A DNA stretch of 64,000 nucleotides from Desulfosudis oleivorans (lineage in GTDB: Bacteria > Desulfobacterota > Desulfobacteria > Desulfobacterales > SURF-7). Where the stretch lies: assembly GCA_020723325.1 (NCBI GenBank), contig DYJD01000007.1, positions 1 to 64,000 on the forward strand, written 5' to 3'. Below, piece after piece: positions 4,575-13,537 of the stretch (positions are counted from its first letter, which is position 1; every line of letters begins with the position of its first letter). A program made the translations under genes and the position numbers. Under the pieces are notes generated by a model, which saw nothing but the letters and a program-made list of their open reading frames with translations, did not search any database and was not told the origin of the DNA.

Positions 4575-4916
4575 ATGAAACTACCATCCGAAGCGGAATT
4601 GCTGCGTATTTTTATCGGTGAAAGCGACAAACATCACGGCCGGCCGCTGTATGAAGCCATTGTGGAAGAGGCGCGGCGCCGGGGGCTTGCCGGCGCCACC
4701 GTGCTCCGCGGCACCCTCGGGTTCGGCGCCAACAGCCGCATCCATACTGCCAAGATATTGCGTTTATCCGAGGACCTGCCCCTGGTCATCGAAATCGTGG
4801 ATACTCCGCAAAAAATAAAGGACTTCCTCCCGGATCTGGACAACATGATTACAGAGGGCCTCGTGACCCTTGAAAAAGTGCGGATCTTCTGTTACCGTCA
4901 CAGCAATCTGGAATGA
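4575..4916 (+). CDS. DUF190 domain-containing protein
   Basis: A 113-aa soluble protein spanning one whole DUF190 domain, a PII-like ferredoxin fold often encoded beside crcB. Typical segments are LRIFIGESDKHHGRPLYEAIV, GLAGATVLRGTLGFG and LPLVIEIVDTPQKI. AAAGGAAGG lies just upstream of the ATG. Operon context suggests a link to fluoride handling, but the molecular role of DUF190 proteins is unknown. Confidence 0.92.
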   Translation: MKLPSEAELLRIFIGESDKHHGRPLYEAIVEEARRRGLAGATVLRGTLGFGANSRIHTAKILRLSEDLPLVIEIVDTPQKIKDFLPDLDNMITEGLVTLEKVRIFCYRHSNLE

Positions 4917-5955
4917 TAATGCCATAGGTCTTGATCATTTGTTTGCCCATCGTCCGCCCCATTTGTTCTATTTGCTCCTGTTCCTGAGCGCTCCGGTATT
5001 CTTGCCCATATCCGAGTGCCGCGCCTTGGATGCGAATAAAATCGTCGTCGTGGCCAACCGTTCCGCCGCCGACAGTCTTGCGCTTGCAAACTACTACATG
5101 CAGAAACGGGGGATTCCGGCTCAAAACCTCTTTGTCATTGAGGCCGCTGATAAAGAACATTGCAGCCGGGAGGAGTATGTCCAATCAATCGCTCTGCCCA
5201 TCCGCAAATTCCTTGCGGACCAAGACCCCATGAAAATCCACTTCCAAGGCATCCTCAGCATGTACGGCGTCCCCCTGACCATCTCCGATTCGGGATTGGG
5301 TTTGAAGGAACAGGCCAAATTGGTGGAACTGCGTGGGAAAGCGCGGCTCCTGCGGTTGCGAGTAGAAAAAAGCAAACCCGCGGACATGGGCGAAAATCAA
5401 GCCCTAAAAAAGGAACTGGATCAAATTGAAACCCGGATTGCCGATATTTCAAGCCAGGAGAACAGCGCTGCCGTGGACTCCGAAATCGCCCTGGTCCGTG
5501 AAAAGGACTATCCTTTGGCCAGTTGGGTACCCAATCCCTTGTGTCTGGCCTATATCGGCAAGAAACCGGCGGGCATGCCCGCCGGCGCCCTCATGGTTTC
5601 CCGTTTGGACGGTCCCACCCCTGGAATTGTGCGGCGCATGATCGACGACAGTTTGGCGGCCGAAAAGAAAGGCCTCCAGGGCAAGAAAGCCTATTTCGAT
5701 GCCAGATGGCCGGACCCCGGCAACAAAGAGCTTTCCGGCTATGCTTTTTATGACCGTTCCATTCACCGGGCCATCGGACCGGTTGGGGAACCCTATGTCT
5801 AGGCTTTTCCCCCGCCGGATGTCTTTTTCAAGCTCCTCCTGGACGGCCGCCTGACCCTGGCGGAAGCCTTTGCCTTGAGCAGTCCTTTCTTGTCCTGGAA
5901 GATTATTCTTATCGGTGATCCCCTTTATCGGCCCTTTAAATCAGATTCCCCTTGA
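4870..5955 (+). pseudogene. TIGR03790-family gene with internal deletion and in-frame amber codon
   Basis: The frame encodes a signal-peptide-like segment (LFYLLLFLSAPVFLPISE), then the TIGR03790 N-terminal region (VVVANRSAADSLALANYYMQ, GILSMYGVPLTI). A TAG at 5800-5802 interrupts it after IGPVGEPYV. Translation continues without a break in the same frame as AFPPPDVFFKLLLDGRLTLAEAF and ends ILIGDPLYRPF before TGA at 5953, the usual family C-terminus. CAG (Gln) is expected where TAG stands. YDRSIHRA also joins IGPVGEPYV directly, whereas family members as I recall them have roughly 80-100 residues between these motifs. The 5' end overlaps the DUF190 gene by 47 bases; a later non-ATG start is possible. 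Confidence 0.75.
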
Positions 5956-5997: not shown

Positions 5998-6165
5998 AAG
6001 GGCTTCAGGTGCTCCATTTGGGAGTGAAAAGGGAAACCGGCGCCAATCCGGTACGGTCCCGCCGCTGTGATCGGGGACGAACCTCGCAAGATGTCACTGC
6101 TGTGTTGAAGCGCAGCGGGAAGACGCGAGCTGTAGAATAATCCGAAAGTCAGAAGACCTGCCTGG
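5998..6165 (+). promoter_or_regulatory. Cobalamin (B12) riboswitch
   Basis: The conserved series of the adenosylcobalamin aptamer is present in order: AGGTGCTCC, GGGAGTGAAAAGGGAA, CCGGTACGGTCCCGCC, GCTGTGATCGGGGACGAA, and GTCAGAAGACCTGCC as the distal B12-box segment. A strong intrinsic terminator follows 27 bases later, so the switch probably works by transcription termination when cobalamin is bound. The regulated genes are those from 6245 to 9582. Confidence 0.93.
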
Positions 6166-6192
6166 GGCTGTGGAAAGATAAAGGGAAATGGT

Positions 6193-6229
6193 AAATCCCC
6201 AAGCGTATATGCGCTTGGGGATTTTTTTA
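6193..6229 (+). terminator. Riboswitch expression-platform terminator
   Basis: AAATCCCCAAGCG and CGCTTGGGGATTT form a perfect 13-bp stem around a six-base loop, followed by a T tract. It ends 16 bases before the ATG of the dehydrogenase gene, where a riboswitch-controlled terminator belongs. Confidence 0.92.
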
Positions 6230-6244
6230 TTTTAAGGTGCAAAA

Positions 6245-7285
6245 ATGCAAGCCGCCGTATTGACTAAGCCGGGACAAATGCTGATGCAAGATCTGCCCCA
6301 GCCGGAATGCCCGGAAGGCGGCGTATTGGTGGCGGTCAGGGCTTGCGGCATCTGCTCGGCCGACGCCGGCATGGTGCGACACGGGCATCGCAGCCTCACA
6401 TACCCGCGCATTTTGGGGCATGAAATCGTGGGCGTCATCCAGGAATCCCGGCACAAAAATTTTCCACCCGGCACGGCTGTGCAGATCGCCCCCGGCCTAT
6501 TCTGCGGCTGCTGCCGCGCCTGCCTGGCCGGCGCCGACCATCGCTGCGGGCATATCGAAATCTTCGGCTTCACCCGCAACGGGGGATTCGCGGAATTTGT
6601 AGCCGTGCCCCTGGAAGGCGCCTTGCGCGGAAGCGTCCAGCCTATTCCGGACGGCTTGGATTTCGCCGTGGCCTGCCTGGCCGAGCCCTTGGCCTGCTGT
6701 ATCAACGCCCAGGACAAACTTGGCATCACCCCCCAGGATACGGTTTGCATCCTGGGGGCCGGCCCCTTGGGCCTGCTGCACGCTTTGCTGGCCCGCGGCC
6801 GCAATGCCGAAAACATCATTATCTGCGACCCCAGGGCTGAAAGACGGAGGCGCGCCCGGGCCTTTGGCCTGGAAATCGTGCTGGATACCACGGAAGATTC
6901 CTTTCCGGCCACTATTTTTGAAAGCACCCAAGGCCGGGGGGTGGATGTCCTGATTTTGGCCAGCCGGGATGCGGCCCTGGACGATCATCTGCTGCGGCTG
7001 GCAGCCGGCGGCGGACGTGTGTCTGTTTTCAGCGGCCTGGCGCCGGCCCTAAACACCCGGCCCCTGAATCTGAATGAGCTCCATTACCGCGAGCTGAGCC
7101 TTTGCGGCGCTTACGGCTGTTCCAAGGGCCACAACCAAAAGGCCCTGGAATTCATCTCGCAAAACCATCATGTGGACTGGGCCGCCTTGATCACCCGGCG
7201 CGGTCCCCTATCCCAAATTCAAGATTGCTTCCATCTTCTGAAGCAGGAAAACGCTTTTAAAACCATTGTGGAGGTTACCCCATGA
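6245..7285 (+). CDS. Zinc-dependent medium-chain dehydrogenase under B12 riboswitch
   Basis: A 346-aa MDR-family alcohol/polyol dehydrogenase. The catalytic zinc site is visible as CGICSAD (about residue 36) and GHE (about 59), the structural zinc site as CGCCRACLAGADHRC (about 83-97), and the nucleotide-binding motif as GAGPLG (about 169). AAGGTG precedes the ATG. It is first in a three-gene operon with a TrpD-like gene (ATGA overlap) and cobT, downstream of the riboswitch. The substrate is unknown. Co-regulation suggests, but does not show, a part in making or handling the cobamide lower ligand. Confidence 0.88.
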   Translation: MQAAVLTKPGQMLMQDLPQPECPEGGVLVAVRACGICSADAGMVRHGHRSLTYPRILGHEIVGVIQESRHKNFPPGTAVQIAPGLFCGCCRACLAGADHRCGHIEIFGFTRNGGFAEFVAVPLEGALRGSVQPIPDGLDFAVACLAEPLACCINAQDKLGITPQDTVCILGAGPLGLLHALLARGRNAENIIICDPRAERRRRARAFGLEIVLDTTEDSFPATIFESTQGRGVDVLILASRDAALDDHLLRLAAGGGRVSVFSGLAPALNTRPLNLNELHYRELSLCGAYGCSKGHNQKALEFISQNHHVDWAALITRRGPLSQIQDCFHLLKQENAFKTIVEVTP

Positions 7286-8403
7286 ACACAGCCATGAAAG
7301 CCTTCGGCCATCTCATCAACCGCCTGATGGCCGGAGAATCCTTGTCCAAGGAGGAATCCCGTCTGGCCCTGCTGCAGATCCTGAACAACGAGGTCACTGA
7401 AATCCAGCAGGGTGCTTTTCTTGCGGCCATAACGGCCAAAGGTCCGGTTCCGGAGGAAATCGCCGGCGTCTGGCAAGCCATTTATGAAGTGGACACGGCC
7501 GCGGCCGCGCCCCAAACCCCAACTCCCCTGGTGGACAATTGCGGCACGGGCATGGATGCCTTCAAGTCCTTTAACATCAGCACCGCCGCCGCTGTGGTTG
7601 CCGCCGCCGGCGGTGTACCCATGGCCCGCCATGGGGCCAGGGCCATTACTTCCCGTTGCGGCACTGTGGATCTGTGTGAAGCCTTGGGCGTGGATGTGGA
7701 ATGCCCGGTGGGAACAGTGACCGCCAGCATTGAAAAAGCCAATATCGGCCTTTTCAACGGCATGAGCCCGACCATTCACCCCCAGGCACTTTTTCGCATC
7801 CTATCCCAGATGGGCTTTGGCAGCATCCTGAACATTGCCGCTTCCCTGGCCAATCCCGCCCGGCCATTGCTGGGTGTTAGGGGTGTTTATGCCGCCGATA
7901 TGGTTGTTCCCGTTGCCCGGACCATGCAGGCCATTGGTTTTGCAAAAGCCATGGTCTTTCATGGTTCCGGGATAAACGGCAGCGGCGGAATGGATGAACT
8001 GTCGCCCCTGGGTAATAGCCTGGTAGCTGAACTGACTGCCGACGGCCATATCCGCACTGATACCATCCACCCTTCTGATCTCGGCCTGAATCTCAACGCC
8101 TCCATGGACGCCATCGCCGCCGGGACCGACGCCCAAAGCGAAGCCCTGCGCTTGTTGCGGATTTTCAGCGGGCAAGATCGCGGCCCGCTGTTTGAAACCA
8201 TCTGCCTCAACGCCGCCCCGATTTTTTACATTGCCGGTGGGGCCCCGGATCTGAAATCCGGCCTGGAAAAAGCCCGCGACCTCATTGACAGGGGCCGGGC
8301 CCTTGACTGCCTGCAGCAATGGGTGGCAACCCAAAACATTGACCCTGCCGCCGGCCAGGCCCGTTTAACCCAACTTCTGACCCAGATCGACCACCATGGA
8401 TAA
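7282..8403 (+). CDS. Anthranilate-phosphoribosyltransferase-like protein (TrpD paralogue)
   Basis: A 373-aa member of the TrpD/nucleoside phosphorylase family: an N-terminal helical domain (about 1-75) and a glycosyl-transfer domain starting DNCGTGMDAFKSFNIST. Motifs differ from classical TrpD: GTGGD is GTGMD, and the usual KHGNR is RHGAR (about residue 117). No other trp gene is near. It overlaps the dehydrogenase by ATGA and precedes cobT, which also moves a phosphoribosyl group to an aromatic base. A role in cobamide lower-ligand metabolism is therefore an attractive inference; ordinary tryptophan synthesis is the alternative. Confidence 0.85.
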   Translation: MNTAMKAFGHLINRLMAGESLSKEESRLALLQILNNEVTEIQQGAFLAAITAKGPVPEEIAGVWQAIYEVDTAAAAPQTPTPLVDNCGTGMDAFKSFNISTAAAVVAAAGGVPMARHGARAITSRCGTVDLCEALGVDVECPVGTVTASIEKANIGLFNGMSPTIHPQALFRILSQMGFGSILNIAASLANPARPLLGVRGVYAADMVVPVARTMQAIGFAKAMVFHGSGINGSGGMDELSPLGNSLVAELTADGHIRTDTIHPSDLGLNLNASMDAIAAGTDAQSEALRLLRIFSGQDRGPLFETICLNAAPIFYIAGGAPDLKSGLEKARDLIDRGRALDCLQQWVATQNIDPAAGQARLTQLLTQIDHHG

Positions 8404-8442
8404 ACCCGCATGTCGTCTATATTTAATAAAAATTGAAAGAAT

Positions 8443-8481
8443 TCCACAATTCATAATTCGTAATTCATAATTCATAATTGT
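8443..8481. repeat. Period-7 satellite (AATTCNT units)
   Basis: Imperfect tandem heptamers of the form AATTCAT/AATTCGT lie between the TrpD-like gene and cobT, just upstream of the cobT ribosome site CCGGAGG. Confidence 0.75.
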
Positions 8482-8496
8482 TTTTCCGGAGGTTTT

Positions 8497-9582
8497 ATGA
8501 AATCCACCCCATCCAGCCTAAACCAAATCATCACGGCCATCGGCCCTATTTCCAACGACTGGCTGCAAAAAGCCCGCAGCCGTACCGCCCAACTACTAAT
8601 GCCCCCCAGGGCCTTGGGACACCTGCACGACATTTCCGAGCGCTTGTGCGCCATCGGCCAGACCCTCACCCCCGGCATGGACCGCAAGGCCTTTCTGGTC
8701 ATGGCCGGTGATCACGGCGTGGCGGCCGAGGGTGTCAGCGCCTTTCCCCAGGAGGTCACCGGTGAAATGATCCGCTCCTTTTTGCGGGGCGGGGCCGGCA
8801 TCAATGTATTGGCGGCCCAAGTCAAGGCGGAAGTTTTCGTGGTGGATATGGGGATTGTGCCCCATCTTAATCCCGTTGACCTGCAAGGCGGTGAAAGACT
8901 GGCTGTTGTAAAAATCGCGGCCGGCACCCGCAATTTTACCAAAGGACCGGCCATGTCGCGGCCGGAAGCGGAAAAATCCGTGCTGGCCGGTTTTCAGCAA
9001 GCCGCGGCCCTCTTTGACAAGGGCATTGAGATTCTCGGTACCGGTGATATGGGCATTGCCAATACAACCCCCTCGGCCGCCATCGGCATGGTCCTCACCG
9101 GTGCCGGCCCGGATCAAATGGTGGGCCGGGGCACCGGCGTGAATGACCAAGGCCTTTTGCGCAAAAAAGACGCCATCCGGCGCGGCCTTGAAATCAACCG
9201 CCCCGACAAATCGGATCCATTGGATGTGCTGGCCAAAATCGGCGGCTTTGAAATCGGCGGCATTGCCGGCGCGATTCTGGCAGCCGCCGGTTACGGCAAG
9301 CCGGTGGTGGTGGACGGTTTCATTTCCACGGCCGGCGCTCTCATTGCCCAGGCCCTTTGTCCCACGGCGGTTGATTATATGTTTGCCGGCCACTGTTCCG
9401 AGGAGCCCGGTCACCGCATCATGCTGAGCCATTTGGGGCTCAGGCCCATTCTGGATCTCGGCCTGCGCCTGGGTGAAGGCACCGGCGCGGCCCTGGCCAT
9501 GGGCATCATGGAAGGTGCCGTGCGGATTTTCCGCGACATGGCCACCTTTGCCGAGGCCGGGGTTTCCGGTGCCGGCTCCTGA
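8497..9582 (+). CDS. cobT: Nicotinate-nucleotide--dimethylbenzimidazole phosphoribosyltransferase
   Basis: A 361-aa CobT of normal length. It transfers phosphoribose from nicotinate mononucleotide to a benzimidazole, giving the alpha-ribazole phosphate of the cobamide lower loop. Family motifs include MAGDHGVAAEGVSAFPQEVT (about 69-88), GGAGINVLA, GDMGIANTTPSAAI and GRGTGVNDQG. GHCSEEPGH and the C-terminal LRLGEGTGAALAM contain the catalytic-base region. The ATG follows CCGGAGGTTTT. Last gene of the B12-riboswitch operon; control by its own end-product pathway fits. Confidence 0.96.
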   Translation: MKSTPSSLNQIITAIGPISNDWLQKARSRTAQLLMPPRALGHLHDISERLCAIGQTLTPGMDRKAFLVMAGDHGVAAEGVSAFPQEVTGEMIRSFLRGGAGINVLAAQVKAEVFVVDMGIVPHLNPVDLQGGERLAVVKIAAGTRNFTKGPAMSRPEAEKSVLAGFQQAAALFDKGIEILGTGDMGIANTTPSAAIGMVLTGAGPDQMVGRGTGVNDQGLLRKKDAIRRGLEINRPDKSDPLDVLAKIGGFEIGGIAGAILAAAGYGKPVVVDGFISTAGALIAQALCPTAVDYMFAGHCSEEPGHRIMLSHLGLRPILDLGLRLGEGTGAALAMGIMEGAVRIFRDMATFAEAGVSGAGS

Positions 9583-9647
9583 AAACAAGGACCAAGGCCG
9601 AAAATAATTGATATGATAATTGCGATCGGGTTTTTCCATGCTTCCAG

Positions 9648-9738
9648 CTCGGGGTCGCTATCGGTATCGGAATCGGTATCGAGTTTTTTCATTTTTTTCG
9701 ATACCGATACCGATAGCGATACCGATAGCGACCCCGAG
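9648..9738. repeat. TCGGNN-hexamer palindrome, copy 1
   Basis: CTCGGGGTCGCTATCGGTAT continues as TCGGNN hexamers to a T-rich loop at about 9680-9700, then the complementary GATACC units return to CGACCCCGAG. It lies between cobT and the sensor gene. The right flank 9731-9880 repeats at 1-150. Confidence 0.85.
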
Positions 9739-10000
9739 AGATTGGATGGCAGAGACAAAACTCCATCACCAACGAATCGCTTTGTTTTGGTGGGCAATCG
9801 TATTCGCTGGATGAAGTGTCGGTAATTAATGGCGGCATATTCCGCGCCAAGTTTGCATGCGATTCTCCTGGTCTTCCCAACTTGCGAGCTTGCTTTTCCA
9901 CGTCAAATAGCATAGATTTTCCCTAACACAATACTCCGAAATACGAATTGCAAAACGTTTCCATCACAACCGATATCAGTTCCAATGGGAAACGAAACAA
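9739..10000. other. Non-coding gap; element flank
   Basis: The first 140 bases are the flank shared with the start of the window. The rest, to the ATG at 10001, contains GGGAA about ten bases before the start codon. I see no gene here. Confidence 0.5.
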
Positions 10001-11438: not shown

Positions 11439-12476
11439 ATGTTGATCGTCATGAACAAAAACGCAACCCAGGCGACCATCGACGCGGTGGTGGCGGCCAT
11501 CGAAAAACGCGGCTACATTGCCCGTCCCATTGAAGGCGGAGAAAGGGTTTCCATCGGCATTCTGCATAACAAGGGCTCGGTGGACGCCTCCCATTTCAGC
11601 GCCCTGCCCGGGGTCAAGGAAGTCATCCCCGTGACCCGGCCGTATAAACTCGTCAGCCGGGAAGTCCAGCCCTTCAACACCATCATCCAGGTGGGGGATA
11701 TCCGCATCGGCCAAGGCACCCTCACCATGATGGCCGGACCCTGTGCAGTTGAAAGCGAAACCCAGGTCATGACCATTGCCGAACAGGTGAAAAAGGCCGG
11801 TGCCGTCATCTTCCGGGGCGGGGCTTTCAAGCCGCGCACATCGCCCTATTCCTTCCAGGGTCTGGGCGAAGCCGGGCTGAAAATCCTGGCCAAGGTGCGC
11901 GAAAATTTCGGCCTGCCCGTGATCACGGAAGTCATGGATGACGAATCCTTCAGCCTGGTGGAAGCCTATGCGGATATTATTCAGATCGGCACCCGCAACA
12001 TGCAGAACTTCTCCCTGCTGCGCCGGGCCGGACGGTCTGCCAAGCCGGTCATGTTAAAGCGCGGCATGGCCGCCACCATCGATGAATGGCTCATGGCCGC
12101 GGAATACATCCTGGAAGAAGGCAACACCCAGGTCATCTTGTGCGAGCGGGGTGTGCGCACCTTTGTCAACCATAGCCGCAACACCCTGGACATCTCGGCC
12201 ATCCCGGTGGTGCGCCGGGAAAGTCATCTGCCCATCCTGGTGGACCCCAGCCATGCCGCCGGCATCCGCGACCAGGTCCTGCCCCTGAGCCTGGCAGCCG
12301 TGGCCGCCGGTGCCCACGGTCTGATCGTGGAAGTGCATCACAAACCCGAGGATGCCATGAGCGACGGGGCCCAGTCCCTTTATCCCTCCCAATTCCAATA
12401 CCTGTGCCGCAAAGTGGAAGCCATGGCACGCTTCCTTTCGGAAAACGGGGAACCCCCGGCCGGAGGCGTTCAGTGA
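11439..12476 (+). CDS. aroF: 3-deoxy-7-phosphoheptulonate synthase (DAHP synthase, type I-beta)
   Basis: A 345-aa enzyme for the first step of the shikimate pathway, joining phosphoenolpyruvate and erythrose 4-phosphate. The N-terminal 70 residues form the ferredoxin-like regulatory domain of the AroF/AroG-beta type (MLIVMNKNATQATIDAVVAA). The barrel follows: GPCAVESE (about 104), FRGGAFKPRTSPYSFQGLG (about 125), QIGTRNMQN, KPVMLKRGM, and DPSHAAG (about 268). AAGGAGGAG precedes ATG 11439. It overlaps aroB by four bases (GTGA) and is controlled by the upstream Trp leader. Confidence 0.97.
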   Translation: MLIVMNKNATQATIDAVVAAIEKRGYIARPIEGGERVSIGILHNKGSVDASHFSALPGVKEVIPVTRPYKLVSREVQPFNTIIQVGDIRIGQGTLTMMAGPCAVESETQVMTIAEQVKKAGAVIFRGGAFKPRTSPYSFQGLGEAGLKILAKVRENFGLPVITEVMDDESFSLVEAYADIIQIGTRNMQNFSLLRRAGRSAKPVMLKRGMAATIDEWLMAAEYILEEGNTQVILCERGVRTFVNHSRNTLDISAIPVVRRESHLPILVDPSHAAGIRDQVLPLSLAAVAAGAHGLIVEVHHKPEDAMSDGAQSLYPSQFQYLCRKVEAMARFLSENGEPPAGGVQ

Positions 12477-13537
12477 AAACCGTTACGATTCAGGGCCGCA
12501 ACAACATATCCCGCCTGCTGGTGGGCGAAAAACTGGAAAAGCTGGCGCACCATCTGCCCAAGACCGGCAAATGCATCATCATCACCGACGGGAATGTGCT
12601 GCGCCACCATGGCGAGCGCTTTCCCAAGGCCGACCTCATCACCATCGGCCTTGGGGAAGGCAGCAAGACCCTTGAGACCGTCCGCGGTATTTATGAAAAC
12701 CTGATCCGACTGAATGCCGACCGTTCCACCTTTCTGCTGGGCATCGGCGGCGGCATTGTCTGCGACATCACCGGTTTTGCCGCTTCCACCTTCATGCGCG
12801 GCCTGTCCTTTGGTTTTGCCGCCACCACCCTCCTGGCCCAGGTGGATGCCAGCGTTGGCGGGAAAAATGGCGTCAACCTGTATGGTTACAAGAACATGAT
12901 CGGGGTTTTCAACCAGCCCGACTTTGTCATTTGTGATCCGGATCTGCTCCACACCTTGCCGCAAAGCGAAATCCGTGGCGGCCTGGCCGAGATCATCAAA
13001 CACGCCGTCATTGCCGATCCCGATCTTTTTGATTTTCTGGAGGCCCGCCGTGAACAGGTCCTGAACCTTGAGCGGGAAACCATCATGCGCCTGGTCCATG
13101 ACTCGGTGATCATCAAGTCTCAAGTGGTCAACCAGGATGAAACCGAAAAGGGCCGGCGCCGCATCCTGAATTTCGGCCATACCCTGGGCCATGCAGTGGA
13201 AAAAACCATGGGCCTGTCCCATGGCGAAGCCGTGGCTTTCGGCATGACCGTGGCAGCAACCCTCTCGGTGCAAAAAGGGCTGCTGTCCCAGGCGGCTTGT
13301 GACCGCATCATTAACCTGATCGCCGCCTGCGGCCTGCCTGTCCGGCTGACCATGGATCTCGACCAGGTGTTGCCGGCCCTGCAAAAAGACAAAAAACGCA
13401 GCGGTGAATCCATTCATTTTGTGCTGTTGGAGGACATCGGCCGGGCTGTTGTTCTGGAAGTGGGTATGACGGAACTAGAAACAGCAATTAAACTCGAATA
13501 TCGAAATCCGAAATTCGAAACAAATTCAAAATGCTAA
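12473..13537 (+). CDS. aroB: 3-dehydroquinate synthase
   Basis: A 354-aa enzyme converting DAHP to 3-dehydroquinate with NAD and zinc. I place the start at GTG 12473, overlapping the aroF stop as GTGA with GGAGGCG upstream; an ATG further upstream would lie deep inside aroF. Motifs are GGGIVCDITGFAASTFMRG (NAD binding, about residue 91), TTLLAQVDASVGGKNGVN, EIIKHAVI (zinc Glu), FGHTLGHAVE and LSHGEAVAFGM (zinc His). The last dozen codons (EYRNPKFETNSKC) run into a repeat that supplies the stop. Confidence 0.96.
   Translation: MKTVTIQGRNNISRLLVGEKLEKLAHHLPKTGKCIIITDGNVLRHHGERFPKADLITIGLGEGSKTLETVRGIYENLIRLNADRSTFLLGIGGGIVCDITGFAASTFMRGLSFGFAATTLLAQVDASVGGKNGVNLYGYKNMIGVFNQPDFVICDPDLLHTLPQSEIRGGLAEIIKHAVIADPDLFDFLEARREQVLNLERETIMRLVHDSVIIKSQVVNQDETEKGRRRILNFGHTLGHAVEKTMGLSHGEAVAFGMTVAATLSVQKGLLSQAACDRIINLIAACGLPVRLTMDLDQVLPALQKDKKRSGESIHFVLLEDIGRAVVLEVGMTELETAIKLEYRNPKFETNSKC

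Follow-up and report, generated by a model that had tools for sequence, protein, structure and literature searches.

The window studied here, a stretch of 64,000 nucleotides of Desulfosudis oleivorans DNA (assembly GCA_020723325.1, contig DYJD01000007.1), holds a cobalamin riboswitch followed by three genes. These encode a zinc-type medium-chain dehydrogenase/reductase (MDR), a TrpD-like phosphoribosyltransferase (TrpDL) and the base-activating phosphoribosyltransferase CobT. We read this operon as a B12-repressed module for the nucleotide loop of cobamides, in which MDR and TrpDL would make or prepare a dedicated base for the lower ligand, or a ribotide that leads to this base, for use by CobT. 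We put the probability of this reading at roughly one half (about 0.52). The reading draws on the fusion of MDR to CobT, the B12 control and the altered acceptor site of TrpDL, and more weakly on the distribution of certain ThiC paralogues.

In the proposed scheme, TrpDL would join phosphoribosyl pyrophosphate (PRPP), whose use is suggested by conserved motifs, to an aromatic or N-heterocyclic acceptor without the carboxylate of anthranilate. MDR, judging by its conserved zinc and NAD residues, would oxidise a hydroxyl with NAD+. The product would pass to CobT for conversion into the alpha-ribotide, and the MDR-CobT fusion seen in one lineage suggests channelling. At high cobamide levels the riboswitch and terminator, both present, would switch the operon off, as expected from the riboswitch family.

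MDR and TrpDL form a unit

We compared 59 genomes including the window's own; most are drafts, and almost all belong to the same order or family as the window. Here, TrpDL denotes the orthologues of the window's TrpD-like protein with at least 49% identity; labels in G refer to genomes (G000 being the window's own) and labels in L to loci. TrpDL was present in 13 of the 59 genomes. With the window's MDR as the query and a threshold of E 1e-35, MDR was found in 16, namely all 13 genomes with TrpDL plus G017, G021 and G042; no MDR was found at that threshold in the remaining 43. In G017 and G021 a TrpD-like gene of 35-36% identity stands beside MDR, and in G042 an N-terminal TrpDL piece of 44% identity follows MDR, the contig ending 32 bases further on. 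Only in G046 does MDR lie elsewhere; in the other 12 loci the two genes are within 1 kb of each other.

A public scan gave a similar picture. We took the best 80 of 309 stretches encoding a TrpDL relative, with ordinary TrpD perhaps among the 309; seven of these 80 loci are the same contigs as loci of the 13 genomes. MDR was encoded within 1.5 kb of TrpDL in 76 of the 80, the others being L064 (the G046 contig), L069 and L082 (a short contig or a contig end) and L072. Overall, the pairwise distances of MDR and TrpDL correlate (r = 0.84 for 79 pairs, with none of 999 permutations as high), a correlation to which shared ancestry contributes. The pair is present in archaea (methanogens and ANME-1) and in anaerobic bacteria of several phyla.

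Three observations concern the surroundings of such pairs. G021 and G017 hold a second kind of MDR and TrpD-like pair (L045 8348-10453 and L047 9453-11757), with KKGAR replacing KHGNR, which by its sequence appears to be a sister module. Neither a riboswitch at the gathering threshold nor a CobT in the stretch was found for these pairs, and they gave no clue to a pathway. A gene of the Pfam family Phenol_MetA_deg lies 3' of TrpDL in L034 (2946-3881, scored) and L060 (9150-10100), with clustered relatives in three more loci. In Methanomassiliicoccales-type loci (L083, L089, L117 and others) three genes follow the pair on the opposite strand in an unvarying order, one of them for dihydropteroate synthase (scored in L132).

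Predicted B12 control of the operon

The sequence-only reading had described a riboswitch and terminator ahead of the three genes, with an ATGA overlap between the first two, and each of these elements was borne out (Table 1). The terminator consists of a hairpin (6196-6221) and seven T (6222-6228), and none of 200 shuffles equalled it. It sits behind the riboswitch and, going by the riboswitch family, would switch the operon. The gap of 93 bases between trpDL and cobT holds no hairpin beating shuffles (8404-8490, z +1.8). Since it folds no better than shuffles, we took mdr, trpDL and cobT as one transcript, so that cobT is likely co-transcribed with the pair.

Table 1. Elements of the riboswitch operon, with positions in the window
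Feature	Position	Strand	Evidence
Cobalamin riboswitch aptamer, RF00174	5990-6179	+	117.4 bits vs gathering 31.5, E 9e-29, full model 1-189
Intrinsic terminator, 11-bp hairpin and T-run, 3' of riboswitch	6196-6228	+	-20.5 kcal/mol, z -6.5
mdr, zinc- and NAD-dependent medium-chain dehydrogenase, first gene of operon	6245-7285	+	346 aa; Pfam ADH_N, ADH_zinc_N
ATGA overlap of mdr stop and trpDL start	7282-7285	+	sequence
trpDL, TrpD-fold phosphoribosyltransferase, putatively PRPP-dependent, with altered acceptor site	7282-8403	+	373 aa; TIGR01245
cobT, base-activating phosphoribosyltransferase	8497-9582	+	361 aa; TIGR03160; sole CobT-family match in genome

A riboswitch lies directly 5' of the module in 11 of the order's 13 TrpDL loci; of the two exceptions, one contig starts at the gene (L033) and the other shows none at gathering (L039). 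We examined 10 further bacterial loci, and 7 have a riboswitch 5' of the pair, those of Peptococcaceae, Desulfitobacteriaceae, Formimonas and Dehalococcoidia among them (Bacillota and Chloroflexota); none was found in L115, L118 and L121. Some of the riboswitch-preceded bacterial pairs have no adjoining CobT. The arrangement of riboswitch, mdr, trpDL and cobT exceeds chance, since it is seen again in other genomes and phyla. The linkage from which the sequence-only reading had started is thus a wide one, recurring behind B12 riboswitches and as MDR-CobT fusions.

TrpDL has a changed acceptor site

TrpDL resembles anthranilate phosphoribosyltransferase (AnPRT, the product of trpD) closely enough to carry its name. 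The window's copy scores 254.4 bits against the trpD model TIGR01245, whose cut-off is 199.05, and the model was passed in all three cases scored (the window, L075 and L100). An AlphaFold2 model of TrpDL (predicted local distance difference test 89.2, predicted template modelling score 0.90) matched anthranilate phosphoribosyltransferases, the top match having Z 39.6 and a root-mean-square deviation of 2.1 over 336 residues. TrpDL thus shares with TrpD (Sulfolobus solfataricus 2gvq and 1zyk, Mycobacterium tuberculosis 4x5b) the fold and the PRPP and Mg motifs. The residues of these motifs, GTGxD, NxST and DE, are retained in all 86 aligned TrpDL.

By contrast, the acceptor site has changed. 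We take the Asn of the KHGN motif and two Arg within R..LG.RT to be anthranilate-binding residues of AnPRT. In the 86 TrpDL the Asn has become Ala (79) or Ser (7), and the two Arg have become Leu and Gly throughout, whereas 17 other TrpD keep the Asn (17/17), the first Arg (17/17) and the second (16/17). The placement of the Arg depends on the aligner: MAFFT pairs it with Leu174 and HMMER with Gln176. At position 176, 69 TrpDL have Q, 10 have K, 4 have N, 2 have R and 1 has H. Because the patterns of the public-locus search included GTGMD and ARHG[AS]RA, which cover Met91 and Ala/Ser119, the counts at those two residues are partly selected. The Arg losses lie outside the patterns, and the order's 13 TrpDL are likewise free of this selection. 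According to Protein Data Bank titles, N138, R193 and R194 variants of the M. tuberculosis enzyme were studied with anthranilate and PRPP; the residues engineered there (N138A, R193A/L, R194A) are naturally Ala or Ser and non-Arg in TrpDL. TrpDL has constants of its own as well, with Asn159, His166 and Arg172 in 86/86, and Asn159 lies within a two-residue insert that sets TrpDL apart from TrpD. The loss of anthranilate-site residues makes an acceptor other than anthranilate likely for TrpDL.

Could TrpDL nevertheless be an ordinary anthranilate phosphoribosyltransferase that stands here by chance? Annotation pipelines would call it TrpD, given its fold and its score above the cut-off. The sequence-only reading had left open whether a canonical trpD exists elsewhere in the genome, and one does (G000:C101), scoring 423.8 bits on the same model; the role of trpD in this genome does not fall to the window's TrpDL. 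A second TrpD match of canonical type, at 32-36% identity, occurs in 12 of the 13 genomes with TrpDL, the exception being G047, whose TrpDL is truncated. In the tree, the 86 TrpDL form a separate clade on one side of a branch with support 100, and the 17 other TrpD lie on the other side together with an odd copy from G021. With the lost acceptor residues and the constant MDR partner added, we regard this explanation as highly improbable. A protein annotated as TrpD can thus be of another kind, and because the curated trpD model accepts TrpDL, tryptophan pathways may be miscounted in metabolic reconstructions.

MDR is an active-looking NAD dehydrogenase

Features of zinc MDRs (the catalytic Cys, His and Glu, four structural Cys and the Rossmann glycines) are kept in 77-78 of 78 TrpDL partners, and an acidic NAD-binding residue is found in 78 of 78. 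H280, Y281 and Y290 are constant among the same 78 partners. By sequence, MDR is an active-looking NAD dehydrogenase whose substrate is probably fixed.

L-threonine 3-dehydrogenase models were among the nearest to MDR. This resemblance raises the possibility that MDR makes the aminopropanol arm of the cobamide, as a threonine or aminoacetone dehydrogenase, with TrpDL incidental. MDR shares the zinc MDR domains and ligands with L-threonine 3-dehydrogenase and scyllo-inosose 3-dehydrogenase, but it scores far under their cut-offs (137.9 bits vs 458.35 and 143.8 vs 380 for the threonine models) and has constants of its own such as those named above; no curated equivalog cut-off was reached in the cases scored. 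CobD-like and CbiB-like genes already stand in the same clusters as the module (L060, L061, L062, L113), and MDR without a TrpD-like partner was not found in the 59 genomes. An aminopropanol role is therefore very unlikely.

CobT and the neighbouring cobamide genes

The window's CobT belongs to the same TIGR03160 equivalog as the nicotinate mononucleotide:base phosphoribosyltransferases of Thermus and Salmonella (1j33, 1d0s), with 423.6 bits against a cut-off of 319.3, and its catalytic Glu is kept (E327 at the position of Salmonella E317). The module's CobT differs in being genetically tied, and sometimes fused, to MDR. Of the order's 13 TrpDL loci, 10 have CobT close to the module or fused with it; in L040 the contig ends, and G046 and G052 carry CobT elsewhere. 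Among the best 80 public loci, 17 have a bacterial CobT within 4 kb and 18 others an archaeal-type CobT (TIGR00303), 35 in total. Single frames of 703-745 amino acids fuse MDR to CobT in seven distinct loci (L039, L042, L043, L044, L103, L118, L124), and in L123 both halves of such a frame were recognised. The BluB/CobT2 fusion of Propionibacterium (PMC4657239) offers a likeness, a base-making enzyme fused to CobT, but MDR is unrelated to BluB.

Further genes of cobamide assembly adjoin the pair. A Dehalococcoidales contig has the order cbiB, cobD/hisC-like, MDR, TrpDL, cobT, cobS, its first and last genes being cut by the contig ends. In two Aquificota contigs the pair is accompanied by cobU and by genes of BtuFC-like and ABC ATPase type; one of these contigs also has cbiB, an incomplete cobT and a gene for cobyric acid synthase. 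CbiR (253 bits, cut-off 105), an enzyme that remodels cobamides, adjoins TrpDL in L069 and lies 2.7 kb before MDR in L061.

These neighbours bear on an explanation in which the pair is a B12-repressed but B12-independent stand-in, or some other metabolic set, with cobT a mere neighbour. The 11 Methanomassiliicoccales loci without a CobT nearby would suit it. So would the finding, reported in a 2004 survey of delta-proteobacterial B12 elements (PMC545781), that B12 riboswitches precede isozymes that do not need B12, NrdDG being one example from that group. The repeated linkage to two classes of CobT, the MDR-CobT fusions and the operons with cbiB, cobS or cobU speak against it, and we consider it improbable.

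In the CobT tree, the TrpDL-linked proteins do not make up one clade.

Other base-making routes

CobS and a single CobT are present in the window's genome, so that it activates some base. Its one ThiC-family protein scores as ThiC (586 bits for TIGR00190 thiC, cut-off 460; 522 for BzaB, cut-off 700), and a second ThiC-family protein, of BzaA/B or BzaF type, was not found in this genome. With the bzaAB/bzaF-cobT anaerobic benzimidazole pathway the operon has in common that base-making genes are clustered with cobT; the window's genome differs in having MDR and TrpDL instead of the second ThiC-family protein. BluB was over its cut-off in none of the 59 genomes, with sub-threshold matches of nitroreductase type in all 59. 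Tandem CobT homologues, as in the phenolic activation by ArsAB, were not found in the window's genome, where the CobT-family match is single. Neither recognised base-making route is visible in this genome, and adenine is a possible base. In a Formimonas genome the riboswitch, MDR and TrpDL are present, yet no ThiC-family match at all.

We then quantified how TrpDL is distributed relative to ThiC paralogues that we call BzaF-like, defined by at least 50% identity to one reference. They form a clade of support 96 with five cobT-abutting and five archaeal copies, apart from the ThiC clade, and abut cobT in 5 of the 59 genomes. Against NCBIfam they score over the ThiC cut-offs and under that of BzaB (about 500 vs 700), with no BzaF model among the matches. 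As no model confirms the name, the distribution test counts as weaker support. Among 99 genomes of the Methanothrix class, BzaF-like proteins are rarer with TrpDL (17/34) than without (54/65), with a Fisher p of 0.0009 that is not corrected for relatedness. The idea that the pair plainly substitutes for Bza was rejected as stated, since BzaF-like proteins co-occur with it, although in this one class the association is still negative. G045 encodes a BzaF-like protein and two CobTs, of which one is an MDR fusion and the other falls in the BzaF-linked clade.

Several further results weigh against a base-making role, besides the partly selected residue counts given above. Within the Methanothrix class, every second genome with TrpDL also encodes a BzaF-like protein, and Desulfamplus magnetovallimortis is another carrier of both. 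In the window's order the two show no association (2/13 with TrpDL vs 12/46 without, p 0.71), and a search of 42 public genomes with TrpDL found BzaF-like proteins in 6, some fragments being unclassified. G050 has a BzaF-like protein, and the only CobT found there is fused to MDR, so that the pair may have a role independent of the base. The 11 Methanomassiliicoccales loci, and several of Methanothrix, have no CobT nearby, and relatives of the window's CobT were found without MDR-TrpDL. The pocket residues of CobT gave no guide to the base: the pocket of the window's CobT is common to all CobT groups compared, and TrpDL-linked and BzaF-linked CobTs are inseparable by it. Finally, most of the source genomes are metagenome-assembled.

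The co-occurrence would fit an explanation in which the pair renews CobT's phosphoribosyl donor whatever the base. TrpDL would combine PRPP with a leaving group (nicotinate or a similar compound), and CobT would use the resulting beta-ribotide with inversion; co-regulation with CobT and the fusions would be expected too. This explanation leaves the dehydrogenase unexplained, and PncB (PF04095 over cut-off, weak matches included) is equally common with and without TrpDL (9/13 vs 30/46, p 1.0). We consider donor renewal rather unlikely. Its narrower form, nicotinate recycling for want of PncB, was rejected, there being no relation between TrpDL and PncB.

With these points weighed, the making or preparation of a base for CobT stays our preferred reading. 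The sequence-only reading had suggested activation, modification or salvage of an unusual lower ligand, and it is partly supported: the making, modification or activation of such a ligand by the set is the best reading. Neither condition that it had named as refuting, TrpDL as the sole trpD or a linkage that fails to recur, was borne out. The co-occurrence of BzaF-like proteins means that the pair is no simple alternative to the anaerobic benzimidazole route.

A possible third route to lower ligands

A bolder version, which we put forward tentatively and hold to be less probable, is that MDR-TrpDL constitutes a third de novo route to lower ligands, beside oxygen-dependent BluB and the radical S-adenosylmethionine enzymes BzaAB/BzaF. 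TrpDL would add the phosphoribosyl group to a heterocycle, and MDR would oxidise a hydroxyl so that a new ring closes or aromatises. It is possible, if doubtful, that such a route is shared by archaea and anaerobic bacteria and yields a ligand undescribed or untraced to genes. A purinyl cobamide may be the product, an idea we considered since Peptococcaceae carry the module.

No title or abstract opening among the matches listed from the open-access literature describes cobT together with an MDR or a TrpD-like gene. PMC8620254 mentions both trpD and cobT, in separate contexts as far as the text was available, and trpD is absent from the main text, as retrieved, of both the delta-proteobacterial survey (PMC545781) and a cobamide gene survey (PMC6461909). 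The parts belong to known families; the combination did not turn up among the open-access matches listed, and there is a fair chance of a new route. The module occurs in anaerobes including methanogens and relatives of sulfate reducers and, in bacteria, under B12 control. Of the cobamide producers predicted in the cobamide gene survey (PMC6461909), no more than 58% could be given a predicted lower-ligand structure. If the proposed role is true, the module would supply a gene marker for part of this gap.

Additional observations

A third ThiC-like type was noticed in L199, L202, L203, L205 and L210; these proteins form one clade, with 43-47% identity to ThiC and about 40% to the BzaF-like reference. 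Genes for 3-deoxy-D-arabino-heptulosonate 7-phosphate synthase and 3-dehydroquinate synthase (aroF/aroB) lie at 11439-13537 in the window, 2 kb downstream of cobT, and in L039 a type II dehydroquinase gene precedes TrpDL. A link of the module to the shikimate pathway is possible, as is chance.

Directly 3' of cobT, at 9640-9745, an imperfect inverted repeat of tatcggtatcg-like units was seen by eye. Upstream of the riboswitch, a TIGR03790-family gene (4870-5955) stops at an in-frame TAG (5800-5802), the frame staying open on to 5955. Reading through the TAG raises the TIGR03790 score from 130.8 to 168.8 bits and gains a second matched stretch; the TAG may be a stop mutation or a site of amber read-through.

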